Positions 15,276 through 44,103 of a DNA stretch of 64,000 bases are shown here, piece after piece. Numbering within the stretch: position 1 is the stretch's first letter; each line of letters starts with the position of its first letter. Both the position numbers and the translations under genes were made by a program. The stretch is from Allacma fusca (taxonomy: Eukaryota > Arthropoda > Collembola > Symphypleona > Sminthuridae), in contig OX359249.1 in assembly GCA_947179485.1 (NCBI GenBank), forward strand, positions 310,001 through 374,000, given 5' to 3'. A model generated the notes under the pieces. It searched no databases, had not been told where the DNA came from, and saw only the letters and a list, made by a program, of their open reading frames with translations.

Positions 15276-15844
15276 TGTTACAGCTCTATCACCCGGGTAT
15301 TGATGTTGTGTGGGTAATAGTAATGTAGCCTAGGTTCGGGTGTTCCATCCCCTGAATTCCTGGAATCCGATGTTGTTGGAAACGCATGAATAAATGGAAC
15401 TTATTAAGTTCTGTGTGTAGTTCGTTTTATTAACTTTTGGCCAATTTATTGTTCCTAAACTGATACAATTTACACTGAACAATTAACATTTAACACAAAT
15501 AGAATTTGAAGTCTGAATCTCTTCTTCCATGAAATCTCCGATTTCATGTCGCCCCGCTTGCTACCTGTGGAGATCCATCCCGGAGGGAATGGACTCTAGG
15601 TGCGGCTCCTCTTGATGTTGCTTGCTTGAAGTCGAGATTAGAACTTGTACTTAATCTACGTGTCTTACTCTAAATCTAATCTTATCCTATTCTTAGTTTA
15701 TTGTTTATTAAATAATCTGAATCGTTTCCTTATAATTATGTTATGTCAGCGTTTGGCGTCACGTAGCCTCTGCTTACGACCTTCCAAACTATTTGCTGAC
15801 TTAGATTATGCTTATTCTAACCTATTTATAATATATCCGTAACA
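15276..15844 (-). repeat. 3' LTR of the giant element
   Basis: 569 bp, TG...CA ends, preceded on the plus strand by the target duplication ATAT. In the element's direction it starts next to a TATAAATAG box and holds AATAAA signals, consistent with a U3-R-U5 layout. Confidence 0.95.
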
Positions 15845-15857
15845 TTCCTCTTCTGGG
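15845..15857 (-). promoter_or_regulatory. Polypurine tract
   Basis: In the element's direction the bases CCCAGAAGAGGAA abut the 3' LTR. A purine run at this spot primes plus-strand DNA synthesis in LTR elements. Just upstream is an 8-bp inverted repeat (ATTGTCGA, 15860-15877) that could fold into a tight hairpin. Confidence 0.8.
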
Positions 15858-18526
15858 TAATTGTCGACCTCGACAATGTCATATATCGAAGTTCAAGTTC
15901 ATATTATTTGTAATTATACTAATTTTTATTTTTGTTACCATACTTTGTAGCTTATTCTTGGTCGTACTGGTTATGGTTGATCTTTTCTTTGTAGCATGGT
16001 CGTACAGTTATCATGGGCATTATTGTTGTTAAGGCATTGCATACAATTTATCATACATGTTCATCATCATATGTGTATATACTTTTGTAACGCTGTACAA
16101 TATTTGATGGTATTATTGTGTGTATATTTTTAGTGGGGTTAAATAACAATCTTTGTAACAATTTATAGGTGTTACCTTTACAATGTGCATATACAGTATT
16201 TACATGGAATACATCGTTATTTACATCATGATTTAACTTGATTTCTACTGTTATTTATCGTATCTAAGATTAGAAACATCGTAGCAGAATTGAAAATTTT
16301 GTACACGCAATTATAGTATGTCGAAACAAGAATTCGAAGCTCGAAAGATACATTAAAATACTATGTTTTGAAAAGAATTTGTTTGTAAAAACTGGCAAGA
16401 ATACTTGAAGGCAGATATGAAACATTTTCCCTTGTTTCTATTCTCATTTGATTTCTAATTTTTCTGATACCAAATTCTAGTTGTTGCAACACTTGGGGTA
16501 GCGTGTTATATGCTAAGGTTGTTGTTTGACAATAAGACTGAAAATGTTATTTCTTATAAAATCCCGTGAGTTTCCTTGTAAAACAATTTAACCTGTCATA
16601 GACAAATCGTTGTGGGGAAATTTTGTCAGAAAATGTTTGATTATCTGATATCTCCACCAGAAGTGACGGCTCTGAGCACAAAAACGTCACTCAGTAATAG
16701 AAAAATATTTTATGGAAATAATTGTTCTTGGGTGGCTAGATTAGGAATTATGTCCATCTCATGCACAACTGTTGGCAATTTCACCAAATGTGAAAACATC
16801 GTGCTCCATGAAGTTCAGTAAGTAGTTCTTACTACTCCATAAGACATAAAATCATATTGTACCGTGAACTATTTCCTCAATTGAGATAAGAATGTATTTT
16901 GGCGATAATCATAAGTATATATATATACCTTGATCTGTAAAAAAACTTATTTGATGGAACGTGTCGAATTTGTAAGCTAAATTTTCTGTTTAATTTCTCT
17001 TTACAAATTATATTAAGAAAACACAATTTGTCTTGCGAAATTATGAAATGTAACAAAGCTAATAAGACGTTTGATCTTTTAAGATTTAAAATTTTTGTTC
17101 CTTTTCACTAGATGTTGAATTTTATCATTGTATAAACGAAGTGAATTTAATGATTCCGTAAATTGTTGGAATCCATCACCGAAACTGTAAGAGCTAATTT
17201 TCCTAATGATAACTATTGTCATCTCTGATGTGTACTGAAATTGTAAAAAAAGATGTCAACACTGTTTGCATTGTAGATCTTAACTACCTTTAAATCTCGT
17301 GATTTAAAATATGAAACTGCCCTCGTATATGTCGATGACATATTAAAACTTAGACTCCTTTAAATCCCGACGTTGGATTTAGCTGAAAATTTCTGTGACA
17401 ACAGAATCTGCTGTGTCAGCAAAGTCCAATGAAGAATATGTGGGTCTATAAACTGGTCGTTTAATGATTCCATTACTGTAATTTTCTTACTTTTTATATT
17501 TTTATTTAAAGTTCCTCCTACCTATTCGTAGTATGTATTTTTTATCTATTTTTCTGGTCCCTATAGGAGATCTAGTGCTCCTAGGATCCTTCAGATCTGG
17601 GCACATTCATGTCAACTTTCATTTAAAATGCGATACATCTTGCAAGTAAATAATTTATGAACGAACATAATATGTTACAGAAATTCTTTTGGAAGAATCT
17701 ATCCTTTGGACTTTCGTTTTACTTAATCTGTTTTCTAGGTACCTAACATATTAGCACGTCTAGCTAAATAGATTTTGTTGAACTGAAGCTAAAAGGTAAA
17801 CTGATCCTGATCGTAGAGAACTTGCTTATACAGGGTTCGGATTTTTGCTGGAAATTTGTTATCCCGCTCATCCCAAACGATGAGTAGGTTAGAAATATAA
17901 ATTTATCTTTCTCATATGGAGTTGAATAACCTAATAAAGTCACAAGGCATTACAATCATCACTCATTGGCTGCAGAGTAAACAAGCCTCTAGGAATTATG
18001 ATCGGCCAAATATTTTGGTTAGAACTGAACCTTATCTTGAAACATTTTTCATCTCGTTAACAAATAAATCTTTGTTTTCAAAACATAGTCTGCCTTGATA
18101 GGTTGACATTTAATGAAAATCTAATCATTGGAATCAATGGGGTGGAAAGAAAATTGGAAAGAAAATGGATGATGAATCCATCGAGACACGAAAGATATGT
18201 TGATTTGAATCACATGATCTTTAGACTATTTTTCCTTTTACTCCTATTGGGGATCTGCCTCTTTAACTAACTTGAACTTTTCGTTCGTTATTTGAACTTT
18301 GTTATTTTCATTTGCATTTTTATATTTTTGTTATATATGAACTTGGGTTTTCTATATTTTCTTTTCCTAACCTTATTCTACTTATAACTACTTATTCTAT
18401 TGTTTTGTTAATACTATCTTATAATTAATAAATATTTTTAAATATTTTTCCATACAATTTTATGGTTTTGCATATTTTTCTTTGTTGTTTTCTTTCTTGC
18501 GTTGGTCCTTCCCGGTTGGGTTGGTG
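15858..18526 (-). other. AT-rich 3' untranslated region of the giant element
   Basis: About 2.7 kb between ORF4 and the 3' LTR. It is strongly AT-rich with frequent stops in all frames. Apart from the hairpin beside the polypurine tract I see no structure or motif I can name. Confidence 0.6.
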
Positions 18527-19252
18527 TTATAGTTGTACAGTTGCTCTGGTTGTGTGTCGGCTGGCCTGTGGTTGTATGTTGGGCCTCACTATTCTGCATC
18601 CGACTAACTGCTCTACAGAATTTTGGACTAATGCCTGCGTATCTGCAACATTGTCTAATTCTCTCTCATTCGCTGTTTGTTGATCTGATTTTCTTTTCTG
18701 CATTCGAATTCGGTACAGTATTACTGTGAATATAAATATCACTACTGTGGTAATACAACCGAATGAACTAATAATGACTACGGTGTAATCCGTGTCTGAT
18801 GTTGGAACCTCATTGGATTTCCAATCAATTTCGTTGAATTGCTCCATCCAAGGTGGTCTGCTATCCCTCAGCATGGTGGGCTGTTGGTTTTGTATGAATT
18901 GTTGTTGGGGTTGTAGTAAAGCCATTTGTTGGTTCCTCTCCATGATTCTCTGTGCTTCTACGTTTGGATCGTTCGGGTCGTACTGTACTACGGCTAGTTT
19001 CCCGTCATCTTTGTGGTGTAGTATATGTACTACTGGGTCCTTTTGTGATAACACTGATGCCGTAATGGCTCCGCTTCCGACTGTTAAGGCTGGTACCATG
19101 TAATTTGCGAACCATTTTCCGACCTGGGTTCCTAAAGCTGCTACTAATGGTCCTCCCCATGGTTCCGGACTTGGTTGTGCTATCGGCCTGGTTTCGGAAA
19201 CGTCCATTGCAATTAGAGTTATTGCAAGGCTCAAAAGATTTTGGCACTTCAT
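18527..19252 (-). CDS. ORF4: small predicted type I membrane protein of the giant element
   Basis: I chose the ATG at 19252 because it opens directly on a signal peptide (MKCQNLLSLAITLIAM); the frame itself is open from an upstream ATG at 19360, which would bury that signal behind 36 polar residues. The product is about 241 residues. A Gly/Ala-rich hydrophobic stretch follows at about residues 33-66 (in full LVAALGTQVGKW, then ALTVGSGAITASVL), then a polar Gln-rich ectodomain. A single transmembrane helix (IISSFGCITTVVIFIFTVIL) stands about 75 residues from the end and is followed by a basic stop-transfer (YRIRMQKRK) and a cytoplasmic tail. The position before the 3' LTR is where env genes sit. 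It lacks ectodomain cysteines and N-glycosylation sites, so it is not a standard envelope glycoprotein. Expression probably needs splicing. Confidence 0.7.
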   Translation of the reverse strand: MKCQNLLSLAITLIAMDVSETRPIAQPSPEPWGGPLVAALGTQVGKWFANYMVPALTVGSGAITASVLSQKDPVVHILHHKDDGKLAVVQYDPNDPNVEAQRIMERNQQMALLQPQQQFIQNQQPTMLRDSRPPWMEQFNEIDWKSNEVPTSDTDYTVVIISSFGCITTVVIFIFTVILYRIRMQKRKSDQQTANERELDNVADTQALVQNSVEQLVGCRIVRPNIQPQASRHTTRATVQL

Positions 19253-19380
19253 TTTCACTGTGTGAAAAAAACTTTTGTGTAACTGTTCTTTATCCCTGAG
19301 TAGTCTCAAGTATTTGAGCTTTCTGTGGGTGTTGAGGTTATAATGAGTACTCTGTTTCAAGAGTCTCGTATTTATATCAA

Positions 19381-19647: not shown

Positions 19648-19825
19648 AAGATCTTAAAAATGTTTTATCGTAGATCCTCTCTTGCGAAATAATCTACACT
19701 TTACATTCCCTTCGGGAATTTCTTCCGTCATCAGGTAATTTGGCTTCTGCTTTTCCCCGCTAGTTCTCTTTCTCTTTATACCATGACCTGGATGGAATGG
19801 TCAGGTTATTATCCTCTGTGACGTT

Positions 19826-22800
19826 TTAATCGTCTTCCTCGGACGGCCCTCTGAGGGTGCCTGTCTCCTCCTCTCCTTCCGTTAGTGTTCGGAATGATAT
19901 GACTGCGAATCTATTCTCGGATAAAATCTCCGGGTCCCATCTTGCACGTGATGATCTTTCCCATAACTGATCCATTAGCCTTCTGTGCTCTACAGGGTTT
20001 GTTATGGAAAGATAGCTGGTTCTTTGTTGTGTCACTGGGTCTCTCCTGAGTTCTTCCTGCAAAAAATCATGTCCGAGGTCTCGAAAAACTATTTCGATTC
20101 CTGTTTGACCTCTGAGGGTTCGTATGAGATTTATTATGTCAGGTTCATCTGGTCTTCCATCAATGACAACTGATCGCCATTGTGCTGCTTGGAATCGGTC
20201 TATTGCACTTGGTATCATGTGTATTGGTGTTATTCCTGGTCGTCTCTCATTTCTTGGAGATAATTGATATGGTTTGTAACTTGGTCCGTCTCCACGGTTG
20301 CTAATTTGCTCCCGAATCCTATGAAAATGTTCTCTTTGCCAGATTCGTATCGTGACAAGTTCGTTTAGGTCTCTGAAAGAACCTGTTTTCCGGGGTTGTC
20401 TTAGGGTGGCTACTCCTCCTTTTAGTTTTCTAGCGTATAGAGTAGTTGGCTTTTGGCCTTCTCCCGCTAGTTTCATTGCGAATATCCAGTCTTCCCATTG
20501 ACCTAGTTCTTCCTCTATGTCGTCGATTGTATTGGGTTGACTTCCGCTGCTCTGATTTATTGCTCCGAATTGTCGCCACTCCTGAATTGCCGCGTCCTGA
20601 TGATAAAGAGTTATGATCCTTTCGGTCATACTCGCAAATTCTTGAAAACTTAGCATGTGTATGGGTATACTCGCTAATTGTTGTAAAGCTTTCTCTCCAC
20701 GTCCGGTGATGGCGTCTCCTCTAAGTAGGAAACTATTTATCCATATTTCTTGCTCTCGCCAGGTTGGCTGAGTTCCTATGTCAAACCACATCTGAGTAAT
20801 TAATCGGCGTAGCTCGGTTCCCGTGAGCCCTTGCATTACTCCCTGATGTTCCCGACATGTTAGATATGTTGGTACTTGATGATTATCAATACCTCTCTGA
20901 CCATTGAACAATGTTGTCCAAAGTCTCGGTATCATTTCCCCTGGTGAGATGTTCATGTCTCCTGCCATTGTTTCCAGACGGGTATTTTCCATTGGTACGT
21001 TTCTTCGACTTTGCCCGTATAGGATGAGCAGGTCTCGCTCCCTTGGGTCTAGTCTGCGATAATCTGTGGGATGGTCCATTGCATCATACAGCAATGCCCT
21101 TCTTTCCCGGATTAGTTCTCCGTGATTGTTGTAATCTATTCCTGCCTGATGTTCGGCGTATTCTATATTTGATTCGTGAGCATCTGTTCTGGGTTCGCTT
21201 AAGGTGCTAAGCGCCCTTTGTAACTGCTCGAGTCGTAGTTGAGGTGGTTGAGTAGGTTGTTGGTGGATGTCAAATCTCTCGATAAATGTCTCCCTGTACA
21301 TTCTGTTGAGCCATCTCACTAAATTTTGTTCTGGACTGTTGGTTGAGCGATGTGAGATATTATATGTCGGAAATCTCTCTGGGTCGATGGTAGATTTCTG
21401 ATAACAATGAGGACACATGGTGGATCGTTCCCTGGTGTCCATGTTGTTGCTGAAGTAGTTGGTCCTCCTGGAGTATTGTGCTTCTATCCGGCTATGGCGT
21501 TCGTCTCCAGATATGTCTTCCAGTACTTGATCCAGAAATCTCGGCGGTGAGTGGTCCAATGGGTCATTGGCCCTTTCTACCATATTTCTCACTTGAAGTC
21601 GTACCGGATCCAGTTGGCTGTATAACTGTGTCTCGTTCGGGTTGGTAAAGATGACTATTTCCGCATCTTCGTCTTCCCAACTTGGTGCTACCATCCATCC
21701 ACGGACTCCTATGTAAAATGATACGTGAGCTAAATCAACGAATCTTACATCAGGTGAGTCGGGTTGTGCCAGTGGATCTTCCGGTGTTGGAGCTGGTGGG
21801 TTTTCCTGGCGTTCTTCCTTAAACTCCACCTTTCGTTGACGTTGTCTAGCTCGTCTGGACTTCAGGTTGTCTTCAATGGGTTGTATAGGTTGTCCCGCTA
21901 TCGTGGATGGTCCTGGTGATGGTGACCTTGATCCTCGTCTGTCCCTAGTATCGTTGAATATTACAGTCCTAATGGGTGAGTATACTCTAACCCTGGGTCG
22001 TTCACTATCTGGCTCTGGACCTCGTTGTCGTCCTCTATACCGGAATGTACAGTTTGGGGCATTGTCTCTTCCGTACAATCTGTCCAACTCTGGTCTTCTC
22101 CTTCGGATGTATTGTACAGGTATATCCTTTTGTCTTTGCCAAGCTTCATGTGCTGCTAACTTGGTCTTTGGTCTTACGGGTGGCTTGTGGCCATGTTTAA
22201 GTGGGCAGTATTCACATCTGGTCTTCACCCACTTGCTGTTTGTCTCGTTGTCTGATGAACTATCTACCTGGTGTTCTGATGGTGGCTTTTCCTCGTCGTC
22301 CAAGACTTCCTCCTTGATTACTTTCGATGATGTCCCGGCTCCTTCTTCTTGAGCCTCCACAGCTTGTTCCGTTGGCACAGCCGGTTCCTCTTCTGAGGCC
22401 AAAACCGGTCCTTCCGCTCCCTCTGTCCTTCGTGGGTGGCTTCTTCCGGGGTCACCTTTCCGTATAGGGTCCTGGTTCCCTCCGAAGTCCATTCCAACGG
22501 ACGTGCCAATATAGATTACCATTCTGAGGGTAAATCGTACAAGCTGCTGAATAATTCCTATTGGTCTTCCTGACGATGAGTGAGCTTCCTCTTCCTCAAT
22601 CCGTGCCAGCATAAGCTGTAGCTGTTGTTTTAAGAATTGTTTGCTATAACTGACGGGTGACCATGCGTTGGTCGGTCCTACGAATGCCTCTCGCCGCTGC
22701 CGTTCTCTGGCTGCTCGTTCCGACGTTCGCTGGAAGAGTGGGTGGGTTTGTGAGACGTTGGCATGTGCCTTTGTCTCCCATCCCTTGAGTTCTTTTTCTT

Positions 22801-25800
22801 CGAGATGGTCAACTCCGTTGTATATGTGTGGTATGAGCAAAACTATCGTCCAGTTTGCCTCCGTGATTGTTGTTGCCAGTGCGAAGTGTACAACTTCACC
22901 TATTGCAATTTCCTCAGTGGGGTGAACATAGTCTTCCCCTTTTGTTATACTGTGAGGGTTGTTTTGGATCTGGCGTTGTAGATTATTTATCTGGTCTTTT
23001 GCCAAGATACTTCGCCTGGTGCGTGTGTGTGTGTCTTTAAGTCCCAGAATTTGGATGACTTTATTGATGAATTTCCCGTACTGTATCTCGTACTCCTTCC
23101 AAATTTCGTATTTGGTCTGTAGTGGTAACGGGATTGGTTTTGTTAGCAAGTCCATGGCGACTGACTGTAAAGTTTTTGTTGTTAGATGGTAACCGTCACG
23201 TATTGCTTGTGACATTAACCAAATAGCTTGCGGTAATTTCCGTTGGTCTCGAATCTTTTGTCGTCGTTCCTCTTCCTCCGAAGTGGGTTCAGGTGCATGT
23301 CGTCGCTCTCTCCCGTTTTCGGATTCTTCCGCGTCCACTTCTTTGCCTAAAGCTTGGTTCCATACTTTGGCTACAGAAGTTTCGTTGAGGTAATGAGCAT
23401 TCCTTTGGATATCACCTGGTAATGCTATTAAGTTCGGAGATATTTCTGTTGCTGTTGGATCTTCCTTAAGAAAATCTTCTAACTCTTTTTCCTCACTGGC
23501 GTTGACGGGCATTATCATCCAGATGGGTCGTTGGTCTGGTAGTTGGGACTCAATGAGTACCCAGTCCTGTGGTATTTTGACTGTTTTTAGTGGTTTGTTC
23601 CATCTCCTGACTGCGTCTAGGATTGAGCTGGTATAGACTCCTACTATGACCATTCCCGTGGTACACATGCCTACGGCTCCTGCTACTCCTCGTACTACTC
23701 CATTCTGCCAGAGTCGGTGCGCTGTGGCTGAACCGAAGCCTTGGTACCGTACGGCTGAATTTCCGACCGGTGGGCATTCCCGTTGGCCGTAAGGGTCATA
23801 GTGTCCGATTTCCTCTGAGTCTTCCTTATTTTCAAAGTCTAGGCTGACATGGTCAAAGCCTCTTGGACTGGTTAGATTCTCGGTTTCCAATCGGGTCCAC
23901 CACTGGTAATGTGATGCCCGGGTTGTTGGATATGGTCCGTAGTGTCCCGTCAATTCCTTTCTCAAATTGGATTGTCCTACAGCAGATGTTATTAAACCGA
24001 ACATTAATAAAAATGATAACCAACTGTTACCGAGGTAAGGTATGGGTCCTCCTCGTCTTCCTCCTCCTCCACGTCCCATATCCGGTGTGTGAGGTGGCGT
24101 TTGAATTGAAGAGGTTGGTTGTCGTGGTTCCTCGTCTTCACTGAGGATGACGGTTCCGTCCTGGGGTGAGTTGGCAAAATCAGCCAATGAAAGCTGGTGG
24201 TGATTAACAATTTCTGTTGTATCCGAAGTTATTGATGATTCTCGATCTTTGGGTCTTCTCTTTGATCTGATCACCTCAAAATCCTCTGAGCTACTGCTCT
24301 GTTCATTGTGTCGCTCGGCTATAGATAGCTCAGATGTTGCAACTTCGACGTTTTGTCCTGGTGAGGGTGGCATTTCCGTTGCCATTCCTGTTGAGCTTGC
24401 CGTTTCTGGACCATTTCGTTTTTCCTGAGCGAGCAAACGCTCTAGCTCTCCGGATGTAGCTGTTGACGTTGGAATGTTCGTTGGTTCAAAGTGTGCTGGA
24501 GGTAATTCTCTGGTTTGAAGGTCTATCTTTGACTCAGCACATACCAAGTGAAAGTCGTTATCATTTCTCCACTTTATCCATTCCTGGCGGTGGCGTGCTA
24601 ATTCTTTCATTAATCCTTCCTTCTGCTTTTTCGCACTGTCTGCATTGACATTTTGTCTGGCAAGGTTGCGGATGATTTCCCCGAGATCTTTTATTCGGTT
24701 TACCATCTCCTCGTGCTTCCCTGCCTTCCTGGAGTCCTCTCCGATCTTTAGGATGTTCGACTGCCATTTCGCCGGTGGTTGGGTTGGTGCTGTGCTCTGT
24801 CCGAATAGCTCTAAGATGGTCATCTGAGCCTCTTTCTTGACCTTCTTCTCCTTCTTTGCACGTTTCTTTGCATGATGTTCACATTCCTGTTGTACCACTG
24901 GTCCACTGTCGGTTGCAATTACTTGTCGTACCCTTTTACATCCTTTCCTACTACAGGTTTGGATAGGTACTGTCTCTTCCTCTTCTGAATCTGAAGAAGA
25001 TTCATTAGCGGTATCTCTGTCCGCTGTTGTAGCTGTGTCCGTGGCAATTTCCTCGCTCCATAATGTCACAGCTACTGATGGTGGAGTCACTACAGGTACT
25101 TCCACTGGTCTTTCTCTTTGAGCGATGCAAACTGCACGCTGTGGTTTAGGTGGTTCACTATTAACCGGTATTGTTGGCGGTGGCATCTTTGTGACCGCGG
25201 TATAGCTTAAGGCTGGAGCTGCTATGGGTACTGTCAGTATTGACTCCCTCTCCATTCGGTCCTTGTAATCTCTCGCTGCTGGCGATAGAAATGGCGAAGG
25301 TGGTGGGGTTGACTCTCTCCTGCTCCTTGACCGCGCTGGACTGTCATAGCGGCTCCTTGACCTGTCGTCCTCCCGTCGCTTCTTCCTCTCTGATGACGAC
25401 TCTGTCTCCCGCTTCCTGGTCCTGCTGTCTTTAGAGCTGTGTCTTTCCCTTGAACTTTCTCTTGAGCTCCTGTGTTGTCTGCCCGAACTTTCTCCATTGG
25501 TGATGGCCCGCCCGCGGCCTCTCCCGGCTGGTACCATATGTGCCGAGTAGGCTGCGAATCTCGGAGGCTCCCTTTGTCGGTCCTCCAAGTTCCCTCGTCT
25601 CAGATCGGGTCCATAGTTGTCATCAATACGTCTACTGATTCTATGGGCTACGTCCTCGACCTGTTCTTCTTGTTGCGGTAACCATTCACTAATTTCGGGG
25701 ATGTTGACTCGGGTTACTCCACAAATAGGGTCGGCTCCCATCACTTTCCGAGATGAGCTTCGACTTGTCTTGCCTCGTTCATATTGAAGGCCTGGAGTAA

Positions 25801-26585: not shown

Positions 26586-26845
26586 TCGCTTTCAGACTGA
26601 TCCAAATCTTCTCGTCCTCTTTCGGGTACGAGTTGGGTATCGTCTACTTTCTCCGGTTTCTTCAGCGCTTTCTCCTTGAGGTGTTTCGCCTGCCTCTGTA
26701 ACTCCCGAATTTCCTCCTGAACTTGTTGAAGTTCCCGTTGGATTTGTACTCGTCGGGTTCTGAGGGTCGCTGAATGTTTCTCGGTGATCTGACGTATTTG
26801 TTCTAATTCTTTCAGGCCTTCTGGGATTGTCTTTCGTGAAGACAT
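26582..26845 (-). CDS. Overprinted small ORF E: 87-residue coiled-coil protein
   Basis: An ATG-initiated frame overlaps the end of pol in the alternative frame and stops 10 bases after the pol stop. The product has a clear heptad pattern over about 55 residues (LKELEQIRQITEKH...IQRELQQVQEEIRELQ) and an acidic tail. A perfect palindrome lies 20 bases upstream of the ATG (26865-26880). Its TGA overlaps the ATG of the next ORF. Confidence 0.5.
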   Translation of the reverse strand: MSSRKTIPEGLKELEQIRQITEKHSATLRTRRVQIQRELQQVQEEIRELQRQAKHLKEKALKKPEKVDDTQLVPERGREDLDQSESE

Positions 26846-33788: not shown

Positions 33789-33808
33789 TCTTTCTTGGAT
33801 ATCTTCAA

Positions 33809-36800
33809 TTACTGGGGGTGCGTCCCCCTCTGTGAGTTTCCCGACGGATATGGGCTAGACTGTCTTTTGTGTGGGCAATTTCTCCTCAGGTGGCCCATCT
33901 CTCCACATCCGAAACACTTTAAGTCGGTTTGGGTGGATTCTAGCGCCAATTGTCCCGGTATCGGTTGTGTCTGCTCCTGGCGGTCTGGTTGATTTCTCCA
34001 GGAATTGTTTCTGTCGTTGCTTTGGCTGTTCCGGTCCCTGGAGTTAGTTCTACTCCTGTTGTTATTGTTGTTGTACTGTTGGGGTCGTTGCCCTCCTTGG
34101 TTATTGTTTGGCTGGTAACCCTGGTTCTGGTAACCTTGTGGGTTGGCCTGAATTTGTTGCATGCCAGGGTTGGCGTACCCCGCATTTTGTCCTGGACCGT
34201 ATCCTTGTTGTGGTACGTATCCTTGAGCTGGTCCATACCCTTGGGTGGGTGCATACCCTTGAAACGGTGCGTAACCCTGTTGGGGTGGGTATCCTTGATT
34301 CGGGTTAAATCCTTGAGGTGGCATAAAGCCTTGAGTTTGATTAAATCCTTGGTTATTATAGCCATTGTGGGATTGGTTGTATCCTTGGTTCATCTGTTGG
34401 TCATTCCACTGACGATTTCCCTGGTTATTAGGGTTGTTGTTATAGTATTGTCGGTTCGGACTTTGTCTAGATCCGAAATTTTGGTTCCGCTGCGGGTAAC
34501 CTTGGTTGTTGGAGCTGTTGCCATCATTTCTGTACTGAGGCCTACTCCTGTCTTGATTATTGTAGAATCTCTCAGGTGTTGGAGATCTACCTCGGTTCCC
34601 ATAGTTTCTTCGGTCATCGTAACCTTGATTGTTACGTCCCCTGTCCGGGTAGTTGCTATTGTTGCTGTAACCTGGACTGGAATTTCGTGAGTTGTTGAAG
34701 TTTCCCTGACCTGGACTTCGTCCTTGTTGGTCATTAGATCTATTTTCAGGTCTCCGATAGTCCTGTTGTTCTCTCACTGCAGCTATTTTCACTACAGTTG
34801 TTTCCGCTGAGACTGGTTTCATTCCGGAGGTCAATTTCTCCAACATTTCTTGGACTTTGGCAAATCTTGTCTCAATAGATTCCGCGCCGTCCGTCTTTCG
34901 GTCTTCATCATACTGCTTGATTCCCTCTATAAAATCTGCTACAGTTCCTGCAGTCCATCCTCGGCAGAAAACTATGTATTCGGATGTTAAACCTGCGCGT
35001 AAGAGTCTGATTTTCTCCAGTTCGGGCATAAATCTGTCGACTCTATTGATTAGTGCTAATTTCGTATCTATATATGCGCATGGATCTTCATCTGTGTTCA
35101 TCTTTCGCTTTTCCATTAGTGTACGTATCATTTGGTCGGTGATACTGTACCTTATTAGAAATTCCTCCCTGAATTCGTCCCAGTTAATGGTGTCGTAGGG
35201 TAGTTCCTCATGTAGTCTTCGTTCGGCAATCCAATTTCTGATCCAATCCCTGACGGGTGGGTCAAAGATGATCTGTACGTATTGCATCCTGGTTATGATG
35301 GTATCTCCTCCGAACCTGTTGGTCTGGAGTTCGGCTGTTGCGAAGGCTGTCTCTGGGTCATCTACACCCGGTTTGAATTCTACTTTGGGAAACATGAGGG
35401 CGGTCATGTCGTCGTCCAGATGTCTCCTTGGATTTATTCGTACCTGTTCTTGGTCTGCGACTTCCTCAATACGTATTCCCTGATTGCGATTAATTGGTAC
35501 GTATGGGTTGATGATGTTAACGTTGACCTGGTTAAAGAAATTATTTCTGTTCACAATCTGTCTATTCCTCCAGTTGTCGAAGGCCTCGAAGTCGTGAGGG
35601 TTACTTGAGTTGCTACTACTGGAGCTGGATGACGAGCTACTTCCTCCGGAACTTCCGGGGTCACTCCTTGCTCTCTGTCTGCCTCCGATGTGTCTACCTC
35701 CTCTTGAGCCTCTTCGACCTGGATTTGACCTTGATTGAGATGGTCGCTGGTTGTGGGAATTGTTGTTGTTAGCCCCTCTCGGCTGGTTTCCTCTCCCTGA
35801 TCCACTTGGTCCTGGGCCTGGTGGTCTGGGTTGGTTATTTCCAATTTGACGGCGTGCTCGTAAGGGTTTACGTCTTTTTCTGACTTGAGTGAGTACGACT
35901 TGAGTTTCCGGACTAAGGTCTTGAAGTCGGATTCTTGGGAAGAAGTGAGTTTCTCCGGTGTTATCCACAAATCGAACTTCCTCTTGTAGTTCTTCGTCTC
36001 TTTCGATGGCTCTAAATGCAGCGTCGTAGGCGTCGTCTATAGGAATTCTTATGGTAAACTGACCTGGTACTTCTGGGATAATGAAGTCCTCTTCGTCAAT
36101 TCCGATAAAAATATGGTCTGTCTCTTCACTAGACTGTGCACTGCTATGCTGACCACTCTCACGTCTCGGAGTGTCTCTCTGAATGATTCGCTCCACTTCC
36201 TCTTCACTAGACGTATCCGTCAGGATTTCGACGCTACGGTCGTGGACTAATCTGCTCAACGCCTCTTGGTGGTCGTATTCGTTCTCGATGTTTTCCAAGA
36301 AGCCTGGTGGTATTCTCTGCCTACGAATGCCGTTAGGCAGGCTGATGTGTCTATGATAGAGCCTAAAATCGGGTGCAATGTAGCTAGTAACTTGATTCGG
36401 GTCTACCGATCTTTGAGCTAGTATCCTCCAAAAGGTAAATATGGGATTGGTACTCAGAACAATTTCCTCGTGTTCTGCCCTGGTAGCTGCGAATGCCTCA
36501 AAATCAGAGTCTCTAGTTGGTCTGAACCTTCGTTGTATTCTACCGTCCCTTCTATTGAAGTAAATTAGACGTCTCACTTGACCTGTCCAAGTCGCCTCGT
36601 TCTCCACTTCCTGGATTCTAGATCCGTCCTGTCTTCGGGCGATCTTCGAGTATTGTCTTACTGTTATCCTGCTTGGTACTAACTCGTCTTCGGTTGCTTC
36701 GTTCTCGCTGGTGTATACTCTGCCACTTGGCCCTGTCCAAATATTTACTCCGTATTGTAAGTCATCAAGCCAATTGACTGTGCCTTGACTTGTGGTTGGA

Positions 36801-39800
36801 GTTGTTGTTACTCGGGATGGTCCTGCTACTGCTGAGTTTGGTCTGACGGGGACAGCTGGAGCTGTCGGTGTCGTCGGTCGGTCGGCTGACCTGGTTATAA
36901 ACCTTCCAGTTGGTCTGACTGGTACTGCAAAAGTCGTTGCTGCGCGTGTCGTAGATGCAGGTGTTGCTGTCCGTGACCTTAAGGTGTCACCTTGGACGTA
37001 CGACTCGTTGCTTCTAGATGTTTGTTCTGAAGGTGGTGGTTGTGGTGCTGTTACAAGCTCTCCACCTTCTATGATGGTCCTGTCGTTGTTGGTTGCTCGT
37101 TGCAGGATGTCTCGACCTCGTAAACTGTGGCGGTGTATACCTGTGCGTCCTATTGGTAGGCTGTTATATAACGAGCCTCTTGGTGATTGATAGACGGTAA
37201 ACCTGTCTTGGGGTCTAAATGCCTGATAGTAAGTACCTGTGTCAGAATTTCTGATGGTATTTGCAATAGTCAAGGACGGATTCTGTTCTCTTAGTTGTCT
37301 CCCTACTTGCACCAATGTTCTTAAAGCTGTCTCACTAACGTCGAGTGGCGGTGCTCGCAACGCGTGCACGGGTGGATGTACGTAGATTCGACCTCCCGGT
37401 GACTGGTAAACTCGGTGTACCAGTTGGTCGTTACCGTTTACCTGGGTGGAATCTGTGTTGACGTACAACTTTGTTGTTGCCAAATCCCTCTTAACGTTAG
37501 CCTGCGATGTATTACCAATTTGGGTGGTCTCGACCTCCTCGGTTGGTGTCTCCAAATCGTCTTGGGTGGGTTGTGGTCTAAATTGCAGGTTAGGTTGAGT
37601 TGGTCGGTTTCTCGGCGTATTTTCCGTTGACACCTGTCTATTCTGACTGGCTGGTGAGATGTGTACTGGGTTAATTTGCTGTGTTGTTTCGTGAGAGTTG
37701 CTGTGTCGGCTTGATTGCCCCCTATCACCGGTTGCGGGTGTTGAGCGACAGGAATTACTGGACCTCGGGGTTCCTCTCGGTTGTGCCGGAGAGCTCCCTG
37801 CTGGCGTCTGATTACCTGTCTGGGTTGTAGGTGATGTTGTGGGTGCTCTTGGGCTACCCTTCTGTCTGGCTGTCTCGCAACAGCTGTTGCTTGTTCTCTC
37901 ACGTGTCGTAATCCCTTGTGGACTGGCCCTGGGATTTAAGTTGCTGTTTTCCTCAGCACTATTTACCCTGTAATGGCTTCTCACCGATTTCTGGAAAAGT
38001 TGTGACCTAGGTGATGAGTAATCTACCTGGTTACTGTCCGTCACCTGGTTACTTGGTCTGAGATGGTCACGATCGGAGTTACTCGACTTCCGATTTCGAG
38101 GGGTTGTTAAACCTGCTTGAAGTGTCGCTGAGGCTATTGCCTGGGCTATAGCCTTGTTGATTGAGCTTGAGCTGGTATTCAAGCTTTCCGGTGAAATTCT
38201 TCGTGACGTAACGGGTTGTATTGTGGACTCGCCTGAGATGGTCCTTAGCGTAGATCTAGATGCTGGTTCTAATAAACCCGTAACCGGATTCCGTGTTACT
38301 GGTGGGTTTCTTTGGTCGTACCTAAGGTACCTGCTAATAATGTCGTCAGCACTGGAGTCGATTACGCTTTGTTGGGTGGTCCCGTTGTTATTTGATTCTT
38401 GTTCTGGACCTGACCTACTCTCGTCGCTGACTCGCCTTTCTTGTCGTTGTTGACCAAATTCTAGATTTTCACTAAGTCTTCCGGATTGTATCACGGTCGT
38501 GTACCTAGGTGTATCGTTGAAGAAAATCTGGCTATCCTGGTGTGCCTGATGACTTCTCAACGACAATACCCGGTGCTCTAAAAGGTTTCGGATGACGTCT
38601 GTGGGGATGAAAATGTTGTCCCTGACGTTCCGACCGTACTCGAAGGCACGTGTGCGTAACACTTCCCTTTCTTCCCTATTCGGATCTCTGTTATTGTCCC
38701 GTCTGTGGGTGACTTCAGCTAATCTAAGGAAAAAATGTGTCCACTGGACTGTACCTGTATAAAGATTTTGAGCTAACCTGTGATACACCTCTATCAGCTG
38801 TCCTTCCAATCCTCGAACTACCAGAAAATTTTCCACTGAGTTCCGTTGGAAGCCTGCTGTGGTCACTAGTTGTTGAAATGATCCCGTTGGTACTATCACA
38901 CCTGTACCTGTCACTAATTGTACGAAATTTTCTTCCACTCTTTGGATGTTATCTTGCCCTTCTCTGATCGGTGGTAACTGATCCTCGACTGGGCCTTCCT
39001 GTTCTGTAGACTCAGACACCCGGCTGAGTGTCCTTTGAAAGCCTATATCTCCTCTATTGGAAAATCCTGGAGATGGTCTTGATAGGAACCTATCTCGCAC
39101 AAGTTGTTGTATGTCTGGTTGTTGAGAAACTGTAGTATTCGACTGTGACGATTTCCGGTGGTCGCTGATGCTTAAGTTTGATAACTGCTGATTTAATTGA
39201 GTAGTGACCTGGTCACGATCACTCCCTATACTGTTATTGGTACGTGGCACTCCTGTTGGTGAGTCACCTTGTTCACTCTGTTCGGTTGACTCGTCCGATT
39301 GAGTTATTGCTAAATTGTCCCTAAATGATGAGTGTGTACTGAGATTCCCTTGCTGGATAATCTCTGGTGTACTTGTTGCTATAGCTATTGGTCTGTTGGA
39401 ATCCTCCAAATCATCCAATTCCGTTGAGCTTTGCTGATTAACCTGTTGTTCTGTTTGTCCAGTAGCTTTGCTGCACATTCCTTGACTTTGTACATCCTGT
39501 TGGGATTGTATGCTCGTGTCTTTAGGAATGTCTCCGTTGCCAACTGGGTTTGTCAGGTTGCTGACAACCACATTGTTGGGTGATTCATTGGTCACATCTT
39601 CCATCTCACTTTCTGGAGTTGCGAATCCTTGCTCGCCCTCCCCGACGCTTGTATGGTTGCTTCCGGGATCCGTGAGAATTTCAAATGATGACATGGCAGC
39701 GCTACTAGTTGGTCTTTCCTCAGGTTGATTAAATTGCGACAGGATTTCCTTGATCGTGGGGTCAGCATCGTGACTGACGAAAACCATGTCTCCTCTAGCA

Positions 39801-40375
39801 TTTAGCATGAATTCGCCTGTGGCCTCAACCTCCTGGTCTTGTTGGACCTGTTGGCCCTCCAGGTTGGTTACCTCGAGGTCGCGTAATTCTCGTTGCATAG
39901 CTAGTCTATGGAGATTCTGTCCTTGCACCACCTTTGTTTTTGAAAACTTTGGTGTTTGTGCTGTCGATACTGTTGGTGTTCGTTTCGGACTGGTTGCCGT
40001 ACCTGTTACAGGTGTTGACACCGTGTCCAAGAACACATCCATGCTTTCATCATTATTGTCAGGATTATCTCCGTGCCCCGTGGCCTGCGAGCCCGATGGA
40101 CTTTGTGCAGATAATGCCAAGGTTGTACTGCCGGATTCTTCCATGACTGTAGATGTTGAAGCTGAAGATGTTGAAGAGAGGTCTACACCTGCCGTTGCTG
40201 TATTAGCTTTGGCTTTCGCTGCTTTCCTCTCCTCTTTCCTGCGGGCGAGGATTTCCTCCAAGCCTGTTTCATTCTGTGGTACTGGTCCTGCAGATCGCGT
40301 AGTCCTTCGAGATGGTAATGAAGGTGCAGGTGGTGGTTCCCTTCTTGATGGATGTTGGTTCTTTTCGGGTTCCAT
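33809..40375 (-). CDS. gag: Gag polyprotein of the giant element (2188 residues)
   Basis: The first ~1650 residues are Ser/Thr/Gln/Arg/Asn-rich and look disordered, with no recognised domain. A retrotransposon capsid-type helical domain follows at about 1655-1825 (VRDWIRNWIAERRLHEELPY, then FREEFLIRYSITDQMIRTL). After an Asn/Arg/Gly-rich linker come QGY-type repeats (about 2015-2078; GYAPFQGYAPTQGYGPAQGY). A single CCHC zinc knuckle (CFGCGEMGHLRRNC, 2154-2167) lies next to the C-terminus. The product would form the particle and bind genomic RNA. Typical gypsy Gag is 300-500 residues with the capsid domain near the start, so the N-terminal extension is extraordinary. The frame is out of register with pol by -1. 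Confidence 0.93.
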   Translation of the reverse strand: MEPEKNQHPSRREPPPAPSLPSRRTTRSAGPVPQNETGLEEILARRKEERKAAKAKANTATAGVDLSSTSSASTSTVMEESGSTTLALSAQSPSGSQATGHGDNPDNNDESMDVFLDTVSTPVTGTATSPKRTPTVSTAQTPKFSKTKVVQGQNLHRLAMQRELRDLEVTNLEGQQVQQDQEVEATGEFMLNARGDMVFVSHDADPTIKEILSQFNQPEERPTSSAAMSSFEILTDPGSNHTSVGEGEQGFATPESEMEDVTNESPNNVVVSNLTNPVGNGDIPKDTSIQSQQDVQSQGMCSKATGQTEQQVNQQSSTELDDLEDSNRPIAIATSTPEIIQQGNLSTHSSFRDNLAITQSDESTEQSEQGDSPTGVPRTNNSIGSDRDQVTTQLNQQLSNLSISDHRKSSQSNTTVSQQPDIQQLVRDRFLSRPSPGFSNRGDIGFQRTLSRVSESTEQEGPVEDQLPPIREGQDNIQRVEENFVQLVTGTGVIVPTGSFQQLVTTAGFQRNSVENFLVVRGLEGQLIEVYHRLAQNLYTGTVQWTHFFLRLAEVTHRRDNNRDPNREEREVLRTRAFEYGRNVRDNIFIPTDVIRNLLEHRVLSLRSHQAHQDSQIFFNDTPRYTTVIQSGRLSENLEFGQQRQERRVSDESRSGPEQESNNNGTTQQSVIDSSADDIISRYLRYDQRNPPVTRNPVTGLLEPASRSTLRTISGESTIQPVTSRRISPESLNTSSSSINKAIAQAIASATLQAGLTTPRNRKSSNSDRDHLRPSNQVTDSNQVDYSSPRSQLFQKSVRSHYRVNSAEENSNLNPRASPQGITTRERTSNSCCETARQKGSPRAPTTSPTTQTGNQTPAGSSPAQPRGTPRSSNSCRSTPATGDRGQSSRHSNSHETTQQINPVHISPASQNRQVSTENTPRNRPTQPNLQFRPQPTQDDLETPTEEVETTQIGNTSQANVKRDLATTKLYVNTDSTQVNGNDQLVHRVYQSPGGRIYVHPPVHALRAPPLDVSETALRTLVQVGRQLREQNPSLTIANTIRNSDTGTYYQAFRPQDRFTVYQSPRGSLYNSLPIGRTGIHRHSLRGRDILQRATNNDRTIIEGGELVTAPQPPPSEQTSRSNESYVQGDTLRSRTATPASTTRAATTFAVPVRPTGRFITRSADRPTTPTAPAVPVRPNSAVAGPSRVTTTPTTSQGTVNWLDDLQYGVNIWTGPSGRVYTSENEATEDELVPSRITVRQYSKIARRQDGSRIQEVENEATWTGQVRRLIYFNRRDGRIQRRFRPTRDSDFEAFAATRAEHEEIVLSTNPIFTFWRILAQRSVDPNQVTSYIAPDFRLYHRHISLPNGIRRQRIPPGFLENIENEYDHQEALSRLVHDRSVEILTDTSSEEEVERIIQRDTPRRESGQHSSAQSSEETDHIFIGIDEEDFIIPEVPGQFTIRIPIDDAYDAAFRAIERDEELQEEVRFVDNTGETHFFPRIRLQDLSPETQVVLTQVRKRRKPLRARRQIGNNQPRPPGPGPSGSGRGNQPRGANNNNSHNQRPSQSRSNPGRRGSRGGRHIGGRQRARSDPGSSGGSSSSSSSSSSNSSNPHDFEAFDNWRNRQIVNRNNFFNQVNVNIINPYVPINRNQGIRIEEVADQEQVRINPRRHLDDDMTALMFPKVEFKPGVDDPETAFATAELQTNRFGGDTIITRMQYVQIIFDPPVRDWIRNWIAERRLHEELPYDTINWDEFREEFLIRYSITDQMIRTLMEKRKMNTDEDPCAYIDTKLALINRVDRFMPELEKIRLLRAGLTSEYIVFCRGWTAGTVADFIEGIKQYDEDRKTDGAESIETRFAKVQEMLEKLTSGMKPVSAETTVVKIAAVREQQDYRRPENRSNDQQGRSPGQGNFNNSRNSSPGYSNNSNYPDRGRNNQGYDDRRNYGNRGRSPTPERFYNNQDRSRPQYRNDGNSSNNQGYPQRNQNFGSRQSPNRQYYNNNPNNQGNRQWNDQQMNQGYNQSHNGYNNQGFNQTQGFMPPQGFNPNQGYPPQQGYAPFQGYAPTQGYGPAQGYVPQQGYGPGQNAGYANPGMQQIQANPQGYQNQGYQPNNNQGGQRPQQYNNNNNRSRTNSRDRNSQSNDRNNSWRNQPDRQEQTQPIPGQLALESTQTDLKCFGCGEMGHLRRNCPHKRQSSPYPSGNSQRGTHPQ
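33814..33842 (-). promoter_or_regulatory. -1 ribosomal frameshift signal at the gag/pol junction
   Basis: In the gag frame the codons read TC[G GGA AAC], an exact X XXY YYZ slippery heptamer (GGGAAAC, 33836-33842). A 7-nt spacer follows, then GGGGG-ACGCA-CCCCC, a five G-C pair hairpin (33814-33828). The gag stop lies eight codons after the heptamer. The pol frame is in the -1 register and stays open through the site. All three parts of a classical signal are present at the expected spacing. No pseudoknot partner for the loop was found by eye. Confidence 0.85.
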
Positions 40376-40779
40376 ACCTGTAAACGTCCTAACTTTTTCC
40401 GGATGGGCTGAAAAATGCTAAGGCGTTTCGTAGAGTTTGGTTTTATGAATTTGTTTTGACGGTTGTGAGAGTTCTTTTGTCAATTTCAATCCTGAAAACC
40501 TTCTTAAAACTTATGCCAAATTTCAACTTAAACCATTTCCTAAAATTTTGCCTTGTATGTCTATGCTATTTTAATCCTAGTTCTAAAACTTAATTGTGCC
40601 AATTGGTGATGATAACTTGGAAAAGAAATTTTCAGTGCTTATAACCTAAGTGTTCAAACCCTGAACGTCCCTAACCTTAGCTGTGAATCGTCTTAAACTT
40701 AATCTCTGTAATCCTAACGTTTCCAATGAGTACCTCCTGGTGTTACCACCTGGATTTCCTTACAACCTAAACTTTCTAG

Positions 40780-41035
40780 TCTTAATTTCCGTTAAACTTA
40801 AACCTTCTTAAAAAACTAACTGTTTTTAAACTTAATCCTTTTAAACCTAAACTGTCGTAAACTTACTTTCTTTAAACTTAAACTCCTTAAGACCTATTCC
40901 CCTTAAAACTTAGTGTCCTTTAAAACTTAACCTTCCCTAAACTTAGTCTCCTTAATCTTATCCTCCTTAAAATTTAACGCTCTTAGACCTACTCTCCTTA
41001 AAACTTAACGCTCTTAAACTTACTTATTTGCAATG
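40780..41035 (-). repeat. Degenerate CTTAAACTTAA repeat field
   Basis: Units resembling CTTAAAACTTAANNCTCC recur roughly every 20-25 bases, about ten times, with indels. In the transcript they read as purine-rich TTTAAGGAG-type repeats upstream of gag. Confidence 0.7.
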
Positions 41036-41079
41036 GCTAGTTGCGTCTAACTCCTTAAATTAGCAGTCTTATTGTCAAT

Positions 41080-42856
41080 CAACACTCCTCACATTCGGGC
41101 CGGTGTTGCCTAAATTCCCTAAATACTCCTGTAATGATTCCCAGAATTAATAAGGACTGTATTCCTCGCTACTAATTACCCTTCTGTCCCAAAGGATATG
41201 TTTCGCGTCCTAATTCGTACCTAAGAACTTCCTTGAACCGATCCTACCATCAGCAAGGCTTGTATCTGTTGTTAGACAGCACAAACTGAAAGCACCAGAA
41301 TTTGCTGAATTTCTATCCCTATAACCAACTCTCAAAAACCATGAGCCTGTGGTTTCTTATGCCAAATCTCTCTACTCTAGCAAAATCCTTCGAGAATGGC
41401 TAACTTATGATGCACTCAAAACCATGAGTCATCTATGGAAGAAGTAATAAATATGAAAGTCCCTATGTATGGCCATAGCTGGAAACCGCATACATAGATT
41501 TTAAAGTGAACCTCCGTGCTTTGGAATGTCCCCTGTTATCCTATCCACTAAACCATGGACCTCCTTACTAGTAATAGTCATTGCTGTTACCTATCCGCTA
41601 GCTCGGGCACATTACAAACATATACCTATATCGGTGCGTCAATCATAGCCTCTCCGATTACCTCTAGTAGGTCACAGGCTTATCGGTACTTTTGTCGGCA
41701 CTCCATCCGATCACCTCCGTGCTTGGAATGACTCGAACCCTACTAAACCATAAGGTCCCTCCTAATCTTCCTAGCCTCTCGGATTCTACGTATACTAAAA
41801 CTTATACACAACAATGATTCCGCTCACATTTCGGCCCTTGAATCCCTAAAAACTACGTAGATGAGAATTTTCTTATATGTATGCTTATTATATGTATGCT
41901 TATGTACTATGCCAATGTGTCCACGCTCAATGTACCTCGGCCCTTTGGACTAAATTTTGTTCAAACCTTAATTAAACTGTCCTAATCACCTCGGTGCTCA
42001 TATTCGGCCCTTCCGAACAAATTTTGTTTACCTTACATACTATAATCTTTAGCTGGTCTGATCTACCTATGCTCTCTAACTGAGCTATGTAGGTTTTGAT
42101 TTGCAAAATGACTAACTGAAATCTGATATGCTCCGTGCTCACATTCGGCCTTCCGGATTAACTTTAAAGTCCTAATATTTGCCAAAAACCATGACAAATT
42201 ATGTCCTAATTACCCAGCGCACAAAACGGCATTTCTGGTAGAATTGGGAAGATGGAAGAAGAAAAGATGTTTGTGAAAAGTTTATGATAGATCCTATTGT
42301 TACCCGTGTAAACCTACACATCAGGTAAAGAAAGTAATTTTCAGCGAAAGAGTTTTAATTGGGTTTTGCCACCTAGCCCTGGGGCTCTTAATTACGTAAT
42401 TTGGAGATAAAGAATTAAAGACATCTGCGCTCAATCCCGGCCCTTCAGATGTGCTTATACTAGAAGGAGAAAAGATGTAGAGAAAGAAGAGAGTGAAAAC
42501 ATTATTTTGAGTTATTTACTTGAAAGATAGATCATATTGTTGCTTTAAACTAAGCTTGGAAAGTGAATTTTGAGAGTCTTGTATTAATAAAAAAAATGTC
42601 CTGATTGATTGAAAGATTGTAATTGTGTTTTGGGTTCCTATCCCCTAGCCTGGGGTTTCCCAAAACTTTGAAAAGTAATTTGAAGAATTAAAAGAATTTC
42701 AACGCTCAAAAACGGCCCTTTTGAAATTAGAACTTAAAACTTACGAAGAGAAAGATTACTATTATACTGCGCACAAGAACGGCACTTCAGCCGGAATAGT
42801 TCCCTTTACAATACGAACACTGTTTATGCCTACGCTCAAAACCCGGCCCTTTAGGC
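41080..42856 (-). promoter_or_regulatory. Family of about ten leader hairpins with a conserved loop and covarying stems
   Basis: Each copy has the plus-strand loop core CGCTCA-N(3-4)-CGGCCCTT, enclosed by arms that differ in sequence but stay complementary. Clear copies: 41080-41108 (CAACAC/GTGTTG), 41816-41844 (GATTC/GAATC), 41919-41950 (GTCCA/TGGAC), 41991-42016 (TCGG/CCGA), 42421-42452 (ACATCTG/CAGATGT), 42695-42728 (AATTTCAA/TTGAAATT), 42828-42856 (GCCTA/TAGGC). Weaker: 42132-42157, 42214-42238, 42767-42790. Compensatory change in the arms with a fixed loop is the signature of a selected RNA structure. The loop holds the self-complementary GGCC. Packaging, dimerisation or protein binding are possible roles. 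Confidence 0.75.
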
Positions 42857-43477
42857 GTCTAAAAAGATAGAAGAAGACTTATTTTACTGGAAGAAGCTAA
42901 TTTTGGTGAAAATTTGTTATGCACGTACACCTACTATGTACTCTGAAAACCACAAAATACATATACATATATGCGCAATTTTCTAATTTGAACATATGAT
43001 TTGTATCTAAACTCTGGTTAATTACTCCTGAATATTAGCTACGCTTCGTAACTACATTACAAAATTAATATGCTCCTAAACATGAAATTCATGAACCTTA
43101 AAGAAAATAGTATTACCTTATTGGACGTCCTCTTCCCCTAATTTTCCGGTTGGAAAGAGTCCCAATTTCACTAGCACTTAAAATAATATTTCTGGCCACA
43201 AAATAGTTCTTTTTTTCTAGTGCCGCACTAGGACTTCTGAACTGTTATTTGAATCCGCGCGTGATGATAATGGCCAAATTTTCTTTCTTGAGGTAACATT
43301 GTTGCATGTTATAACTGCCTTTCACGAGAAGTTTCGGGTGGCCCTGGAGAGAAATGAGAATATTTCCTCCTTGTTGAGCCCCATACTTCCATCCCATGAA
43401 TTTTGAAAACTGCGACCGTACTTGCTACAAAGTTGGTCTTTGTTTCAGGGTCATCCGCAGGTCCCCGACCTACGGAT

Positions 43478-43508
43478 CCTCCGGGTCCTTACCAAATAAA
43501 CCCGAAGG
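43478..43508 (-). promoter_or_regulatory. Nine-pair hairpin just inside the 5' LTR, candidate primer-site structure
   Basis: In transcript sense CCTTCGGGT pairs with ACCCGGAGG (one U-G pair), with a 13-base loop. The loop contains the first TGG downstream of the LTR, 30 bases in. Elements primed by a tRNA normally show TGG within a few bases of the LTR, and none is there. The wobble pair works only on the transcribed strand. Confidence 0.4.
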
Positions 43509-43524
43509 CCTGGCAGAAACATCA

Positions 43525-44103
43525 TGTTACAGCTCTATCACCCGGGTATTGATGTTGTGTGGGTAATAGTAATGTAGCCTAGGTTCGGGTGTTCCATCCC
43601 CTGAATTCCTGGAATCCGATGTTGTTGGAAACGCATGAATAAATGGAACTTATTGAGTTCTGTGTGTAGTTCGTTTTATTAACTTTTGGCCAATTTATTG
43701 TTCCTAAACTGATACAATTTACACTGAACAATTAACATTTAACACAAATAGAATTTGAAGTCTGAATCTCTTCTTCCTGAAATCTCCCGATTTCATGTCG
43801 CCCCGTCTGCTACCTTTTGAGCTCCATCCCGGAGGGAATGGACTCTAGGTGCGGCTCCTCTTGATGTTGCTTGCTTGAAGTCGAGATTAGAACTTGTACT
43901 TAATCTACGTGTCTTAATCTAAATCTAATCTTATCCTATTCTTAGTTTATTGTTTATTAAATAATCTGAATCATTTCCTTTCCTTTCCTTATAATTATGT
44001 TATGTCAGCGTTTGGCGTCACGTAGCCTCTGCTTACGACCTTCCAAACTATTTGCTGACTTAGATTATGCTTATTCTACTCTATTTATAATATATCCGTA
44101 ACA
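43525..44103 (-). repeat. 5' LTR of the giant element
   Basis: 579 bp, ten longer than the other LTR because of a CTTTC-type duplication near 43980. The target duplication ATAT follows at 44104-44107. In the element's direction it begins TGTTACGG with a TATAAATAG box about 15 bases in and has AATAAA in the second half. Confidence 0.95.

Follow-up and report, generated by a model that had tools for sequence, protein, structure and literature searches.

Transcription, the processivity of reverse transcriptase and packaging were traditionally held to keep retroelements near 10 kb in length, as recounted in a 2019 review (PMC6431247). As quoted there, the interior of Burro of planarians reaches 25 kb and its total length is more than 30 kb, and Ogre has long terminal repeats (LTRs) of 1.9-6.5 kb around an interior of 11-13 kb (PMC6431247). 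Here we describe an LTR retroelement of 28,828 bp, with an interior of 27,680 bp, from the springtail Allacma fusca. It occupies positions 44103 to 15276 (minus strand) of a 64,000-nucleotide stretch of contig OX359249.1 (positions 310,001 to 374,000), hereafter the window, whose numbering is used throughout. We read it, with a probability of about 0.9, as a member of a family of giant Ty3/gypsy-type LTR retroelements that is autonomous and has recently been active in this species. The open reading frames (ORFs) and other parts of the element are the following.

44104..44107, no strand: target-site duplication ATAT, 5' side
43525..44103, minus strand: 5' LTR, 579 bp
43509..43524, minus strand: possible primer-binding site TGATGTTTCTGCCAGG, at the start of the interior
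40376..43524, minus strand: leader of 3.1 kb without a long ORF, with two neighbouring 11-bp hairpins near the 5' LTR (z -2.68)
33809..40375, minus strand: ORF1, 2188 aa, with an extension of ~1690 aa, a capsid-like region at ~1690-1860 and a CCHC knuckle at 2154
33836..33842, minus strand: candidate -1 frameshift heptamer GGGAAAC in the correct phase, followed by a 7-nt spacer and a 5-bp GGGGG/CCCCC stem
26592..33788, minus strand: ORF2 (Pol), 2398 aa from the first ATG, stop-free from 33854; protease at residues 34-132, reverse transcriptase (RT) at 383-543, RNase H at 616-743, integrase at 1420-1589 and a p58-like C domain at 1733-1767
19826..26392, minus strand: ORF3, 2188 aa, without a known domain
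18530..19252, minus strand: ORF4, 241 aa from the ATG, with an N-terminal hydrophobic stretch, one transmembrane segment and the basic stretch YRIRMQKRK
15845..15854, minus strand: polypurine tract AGAAGAGGAA, adjoining the 3' LTR
15276..15844, minus strand: 3' LTR, 569 bp
15272..15275, no strand: target-site duplication ATAT, 3' side

Like Burro, the springtail element is gypsy-like and giant, with an interior of more than 20 kb, a large additional coding capacity and many copies. However, the 4,873-aa polyprotein quoted for Burro contrasts with three long frames and a short one here, gag and pol do not form one frame, and the capsid-like region is near the end of ORF1 rather than at the start, as in Burro. 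Furthermore, none of the BIR, MATH, BCL2-like or ankyrin domains is matched in Pfam, the LTRs measure ~0.57 kb, and the 27.7-kb interior exceeds the 25 kb quoted in the review (PMC6431247). The Ogre/Tat elements of plants are likewise oversized gypsy elements with extra ORFs, and the size of Ogre is, as quoted in that review, largely due to its LTRs (1.9-6.5 kb), unlike the short LTRs (569 and 579 bp) and large interior found here. The corresponding part of Pol in the springtail element, residues 743-1420, has no significant Pfam match, whereas in Ogre/Tat elements a further RNase H, of archaeal type, lies between the first one and the integrase. Errantiviruses and other insect endogenous retroviruses (gypsy, ZAM, 17.6) share with our element an arthropod host, gag-pol followed by a third frame and a 4-bp target-site duplication, and its preference for ATAT as a target resembles that of 17.6 and 297. 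In contrast to them, it shows no Env homology in ORF3 or ORF4 (by Pfam, and for ORF3 also by PDB), and it is more than three times the usual errantivirus length. Ty3 of yeast, the top solved-structure match for RT/RNase H, is a short element, and those of the MDG1 group (412 and relatives) are also much smaller than the springtail element. The latter encode an extra small membrane protein, sORF2, which like ORF4 has a basic stretch after its transmembrane segment; as described in PMC11952523, sORF2 proteins are shorter than ORF4, and a myristoylation motif, absent from ORF4, is present in four of the six. RT, integrase, ORF3 and Pol recovered no relative when scanned against viral sequences and genome contigs, and literature titles and abstracts, a coverage outside which Repbase and most subscription papers fall, yielded no LTR element of comparable size from a springtail or any other arthropod. 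The separateness from Burro, Ogre and errantiviruses implied by an earlier note on this DNA is partly supported, in that the element is set apart by its architecture only.

The same note had described an intact LTR element, and this description holds. Both LTRs start with TGTTAC and finish with GTAACA, and these TG..CA termini, the short target-site duplication and the polypurine tract are those of Ty3/gypsy (Metaviridae) elements. Two random flank 4-mers would match by chance with a probability of 0.005, and the polypurine tract is identical in 16 of 16 other copies. In element orientation, the 5' LTR has TATAAA at LTR position 15 and AATAAA at positions 146, 153, 405 and 424. No strict splice-donor pattern was found, and neither an Rfam nor a tRNA scan of the window gave a match. 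The coding strand of the element is A-rich (plus-strand AT skew of -0.19 to -0.37 in 2-kb steps over 18000-40000), a property also seen in some retroviruses.

Pol likewise has the protease-RT-RNase H-integrase order of the Metaviridae, with YLDD, DSGA and a D-D-35-E triad. The protease, RT, RNase H and the zinc-binding and C-terminal domains of the integrase are above the Pfam cut-offs, with the integrase core (rve) slightly below (32.2 versus 32.6 bits), which bears out the complete enzyme set that had been claimed. An insert of ~670 aa before the integrase and a tail of ~600 aa have no significant Pfam match. In a PDB search the best solved-structure match of RT/RNase H is Ty3 (E 1.1e-73 for 4ol8 and 2.2e-74 for 7q5b), with bit scores of 252-254. 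The next entries score 156, which we take to be of plant pararetrovirus type, and 109-110, presumably of foamy type, followed by chains at 84-95. By this ranking of bit scores, the RT is nearer to Ty3 than to retroviruses. The 2188-, 2398- and 2188-codon frames of ORF1, ORF2 and ORF3 are far from random expectation: 200 base shuffles of each produced no stop-free run of more than 295 codons in frame, and chance ORFs are accordingly rejected. ORF1 and ORF3 show no similarity to each other beyond chance, and their equal length of 2188 codons appears to be a coincidence.

That the element belongs to a large family emerges from searches of the 392,743,791-bp genome (91 contigs), in which the best candidates were scored, so that all counts are lower bounds. 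With RT as the query, the best 86 of 2198 candidates were all 98-100% identical, and 79 of these 86 are followed by a same-strand ORF3 match 10.8-12.0 kb downstream, the remaining seven having none. With full-length ORF3, the best 22 of 596 candidates were all 97-100% identical, 15 of the 22 scored copies being without a stop. The C-terminal 549 aa of ORF3 gave at least 96% identity in all of the best 79 of 252 candidates; 62 of these 79 are within frames of 2200 codons or more, and 60 of the 62 contain no stop. A 121-aa piece of ORF3, for which the best 150 of 211 candidates were scored, produced 151 matches. Among the 150 listed, 119 belong to the same family at 78% identity or more, some of them being fragments, and 31, at 57-63%, represent a second family; stop-free frames of at least 2190 codons are seen in 76 of the 119 and 6 of the 31. 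A wider RVT_1 search of the genome returned 4153 candidates, of which the best 150 were scored and all matched; other retroelement families are thus probably abundant in it.

For closer study we took 20 other copies from the top of the ORF3 similarity ranking (ranks 2-21 of 22, leaving out the window copy and the last). Many copies share ORF3, and ORF4 is present in all 20 examined pieces; the finding that the note had named as a refutation, that the ORF3-ORF4 region is missing from every other copy, is thereby contradicted. Both LTRs were read in 16 of the 20, and 15 of these 16 copies measure 28,664-28,885 bp, a range of 221 bp that includes the window copy; the other measures 30,071 bp. A matching 4-bp duplication flanks 15 of the 16, and ATAT accounts for 14 of the 16 duplications including that of the window, against a flank frequency of 0.7%. 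The distance between the two LTRs of a copy (Kimura two-parameter, K2P) ranges from 0 to 0.0086 in the 16 other copies, with a median of 0.0017 and a value of zero in 7. Thus, the identical LTRs, the 4-bp duplications and the uniform lengths indicate that the family has been very recently mobile. A dead relic is rejected as a reading of the element. The synonymous distance between copies (0.12) is much larger than the LTR distance within them, which points to several sub-lineages transposing side by side. An independent query with the LTR, for which the best 40 of 301 candidates were scored, resolved into 18 same-strand pairs and 4 singles. The spacing from start to start is 28.0-28.4 kb in 15 of the 18 pairs, the window's included, and 26.9, 22.5 and 3.6 kb in the others. 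At C12:12604943-12609060, two equal-score LTRs 3.6 kb apart enclose an ORF3 fragment (C12:12607533); this locus is probably an internally deleted derivative.

ORF1, ORF3 and ORF4 are under purifying selection. The ratio of nonsynonymous to synonymous differences (pN/pS) over 21 sequences is 0.123 for ORF3, with values of 0.121, 0.140, 0.246 and 0.049 in four successive parts, the most constrained being residues 1640-2188. Shifted frames of ORF3, used as a control, gave 1.53 and 1.96, and its indel totals are divisible by three. The corresponding value for ORF4 is 0.202 (21 sequences). For ORF1, from 4 sequences, pN/pS is 0.117 overall; it falls to 0.027 over the capsid-like region, is 0.061 for the final part and ranges over 0.11-0.24 along the N-terminal extension, against 1.76 and 1.97 in the shifted frames. 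As neutral mutations after insertion raise pN/pS, the constraint during propagation must be at least this strong. Within the ORF1 extension a short motif occurs three times, at residues 989, 1061 and 1212 (VYQSPGGRIY, VYQSPRGSLY and IWTGPSGRVY).

The second family extends these observations. Its ORF3, read in one intact copy (L084, 2331 aa), aligns end to end with ORF3, 50% of the aligned residues (1085 of 2161) being identical. Together with the many copies and the purifying selection, this sustains the proposal of a giant lineage with its own accessory genes. Both proteins have Met772 with GGPIP and a signal-like hydrophobic stretch containing LITSA, a Gly/Ala-rich hydrophobic stretch at ~900, sequons at 964, 1003 and 1180, RERRHAPEPTSEEE at 1028 (the basic site RERR), RTRRSI at 1124 (the basic site RTRR) and a hydrophobic stretch at ~1278. 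Of the 16 cysteines of ORF3, 12 are shared with L084, but C910 is the only one within 772-1310, and L084 has extra C..C pairs resembling zinc ribbons. Four pieces of ORF3 found no match in Pfam at E values up to 5, nor was there a significant match in PDB; the L084 protein also lacks significant matches in both, its sub-threshold Pfam matches being unrelated. When ORF3 is examined for a recognisable fusion protein of an errantivirus or endogenous-retrovirus env, it thus shows signal-, cleavage- and transmembrane-like features but no significant match in Pfam or PDB. Across 21 ORF4 sequences the transmembrane segment is preserved, as is much of the basic stretch; the Pfam matches of ORF4, to membrane-spanning portions of cellular proteins (protocadherin at E 0.003), are weak and sub-threshold, and no relative was found among phage records. 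Similarity between ORF3 and ORF4, or between ORF3 and the capsid, is not above that of shuffles. A 108-codon ORF on the minus strand (26259-26585), which begins 6 bases past the stop of ORF2, extends over the beginning of ORF3 in a different reading frame.

These features suggest a replication cycle in which the 5' LTR would drive a full-length RNA of roughly 28 kb. ORF1 would be translated as Gag, and Gag-Pol would be produced via a -1 frameshift at GGGAAAC, in the 43 nt by which the ORF1 and Pol frames overlap. In-phase heptamers of this kind number 8 per 2189 codons in ORF1, and only ~0.05 are thus expected in the 14 codons of the overlap. The heptamer and spacer are unaltered in 15 of 20 junction pieces of other copies, with 5 pairs in the stem in 14 and 4 in one. 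The polypurine tract would prime the plus strand, and a tRNA would prime the minus strand near the 5' LTR. The interior starts with TGATGTTTCTGCCAGG in the window and 13 of 16 other copies and with TGGTGTTTCTGCCAGG in 3 of 16, and no exact complement of this region was found within the LTR. Three loci within ~1 kb of contig C10 fit the pattern of a tRNA 3' end complementary to the primer site, with 0 in a reversed control. The three tRNA-like genes there (C10:56065137-56066144) match the primer site in 11-12 bases at their 3' ends. Two of the three loci were examined; both are tRNAs by Rfam, and ARAGORN calls one of them tRNA-Ala. The one gene that was read, L085, has 12 bases complementary to the site, and a tRNA of this kind is a plausible candidate primer. 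The integrase would then insert the DNA mostly at ATAT. ORF3 and ORF4, maintained by selection, occupy the position of a retroviral env and may act at the membrane, in particle trafficking or cell-to-cell passage, or within the cell.

Several observations weigh against this reading as a whole or against parts of it. The window copy, which the earlier note supposed might still be mobile, differs between its LTRs by 10 mismatches (1.8%), one 10-bp and two 1-bp indels in a global alignment, or by 17 mismatches in a MAFFT alignment, which exceeds all 16 dated copies (highest K2P 0.0086). Mobility is supported for the family, and the window copy is either one of the older insertions or one whose LTRs have recombined. 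The 20 copies studied are those most similar to the window by ORF3 rather than a random sample; 4 of them lack a 5' LTR in the examined piece and are undated, and one of the 16 dated copies has no target-site duplication. Stops interrupt 7 of the 22 scored ORF3 copies and ORF1 in 2 of 3 other copies (L082 and L083), and one ORF4 copy has a 1-base deletion. The capsid assignment depends on a sub-threshold Pfam match (Retrotrans_gag, E 0.08), position and strong selection, and the zf-CCHC knuckle of ORF1 is barely above its Pfam cut-off. The frameshift site was not seen in 5 of the 20 junction pieces, perhaps being out of register, and the folding of that region as a whole is not unusual (z -1.34). 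The primer site begins with TGA rather than TGG in 13 of 16 copies, TGG being present in 3, and L085 has a T before CCA where the element requires an A. Finally, AlphaFold models of ORF3 are unusable, with a predicted local distance difference test score (pLDDT) of 37.7 for residues 772-1310 and of 35.9 for residues 1640-2188, the latter with 10 near-identical copies.

An entirely different explanation, that the span is an assembly artefact in which LTRs of separate insertions surround unrelated DNA, has a negligible chance of being right. The sole run of Ns in the window (14383-14582) lies ~0.7 kb past the 3' end and might suggest it; however, this gap is outside the element, the target-site duplication matches, 15 of 16 other copies span 28.66-28.89 kb, and 15 of 18 LTR pairs are 28.0-28.4 kb apart. 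The assembly is, moreover, HiFi-based, with a quality value (QV) of 58.7 as stated in PMC10427803. Independent copies of the same length thus refute misassembly.

The remaining alternatives concern ORF3 and ORF4. It is quite conceivable, if short of probable, that ORF3 is an intracellular helper, such as an RNA export, chromatin or anti-silencing factor or a capsid partner, and not a membrane protein. Its N-terminal half is rich in R/E/S, its C..C pairs are retained or gained in the second family and the strongest constraint is on its C-terminal 549 aa (pN/pS 0.049), but this view has to contend with the signal-like and transmembrane-like hydrophobic stretches conserved between the families. 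Rather doubtful is the proposal that ORF4, alone or together with ORF3, serves as a small membrane protein aiding directed cell-to-cell transfer, in the manner of the sORF2 proteins of Drosophila MDG1-group elements, which resemble fusion-associated small transmembrane (FAST) proteins. The single transmembrane segment and the basic stretch behind it, largely conserved in 21 sequences, reproduce the layout described in PMC11952523; however, the 241 aa of ORF4 exceed the ~100-200 residues given there for FAST proteins, a signal-like stretch takes the place of the N-terminal MGxxxS/T motif, the transmembrane part matches, at a weak sub-threshold level, cellular membrane proteins such as protocadherin, and a shared layout by itself is weak evidence. 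We consider it unlikely that ORF3 from Met772 is an Env-type glycoprotein, which would make the element an endogenous retrovirus able to infect cells. Its location after pol agrees with this, as do the internal Met with the signal-like stretch, the N-X-S/T sites, RERR/RTRR and the later hydrophobic stretches, all kept in L084. Against it stand the database searches of both families, a candidate start 771 codons within a longer conserved frame, and the single shared cysteine in 772-1310 despite 12 of 16 shared across ORF3, which speaks against a typical disulphide-rich Env ectodomain in this region. Improbable to a like degree is a new transmission module, formed by ORF3 and ORF4 and unrelated to known Env, that would pass the ~28-kb element between cells or individuals.

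Elsewhere in the window, a satellite at 10725-12595, 2.7 kb from the element, comprises 12 copies of a 156-bp unit with 99% matches, and an array of 25- and 31-bp units lies between inverted 15-bp repeats at 1390-2393. Host exons encode parts of a sodium:neurotransmitter symporter (4292-4711, minus strand), an RRM protein that we take to be SRSF1-like (53972-54256, plus strand) and a RhoGAP (63514-63810, plus strand).

The autonomous Ty3/gypsy-type reading thus describes a real, giant, multicopy and recently active family with conserved accessory genes; its biology beyond this we infer from sequence. This is an arthropod lineage whose interior measures 27.7 kb and whose many copies are uniform in structure, several having inserted very recently, with extra frames kept by selection. 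Giant LTR elements hence occur in at least two different layouts, and the springtail family offers an animal system for studying the packaging and copying of so long an RNA and the contribution of the extra proteins. If ORF3 and ORF4 did form a transmission module, the element would be among the largest known reverse-transcribed, virus-like RNA genomes, and one that is currently moving.

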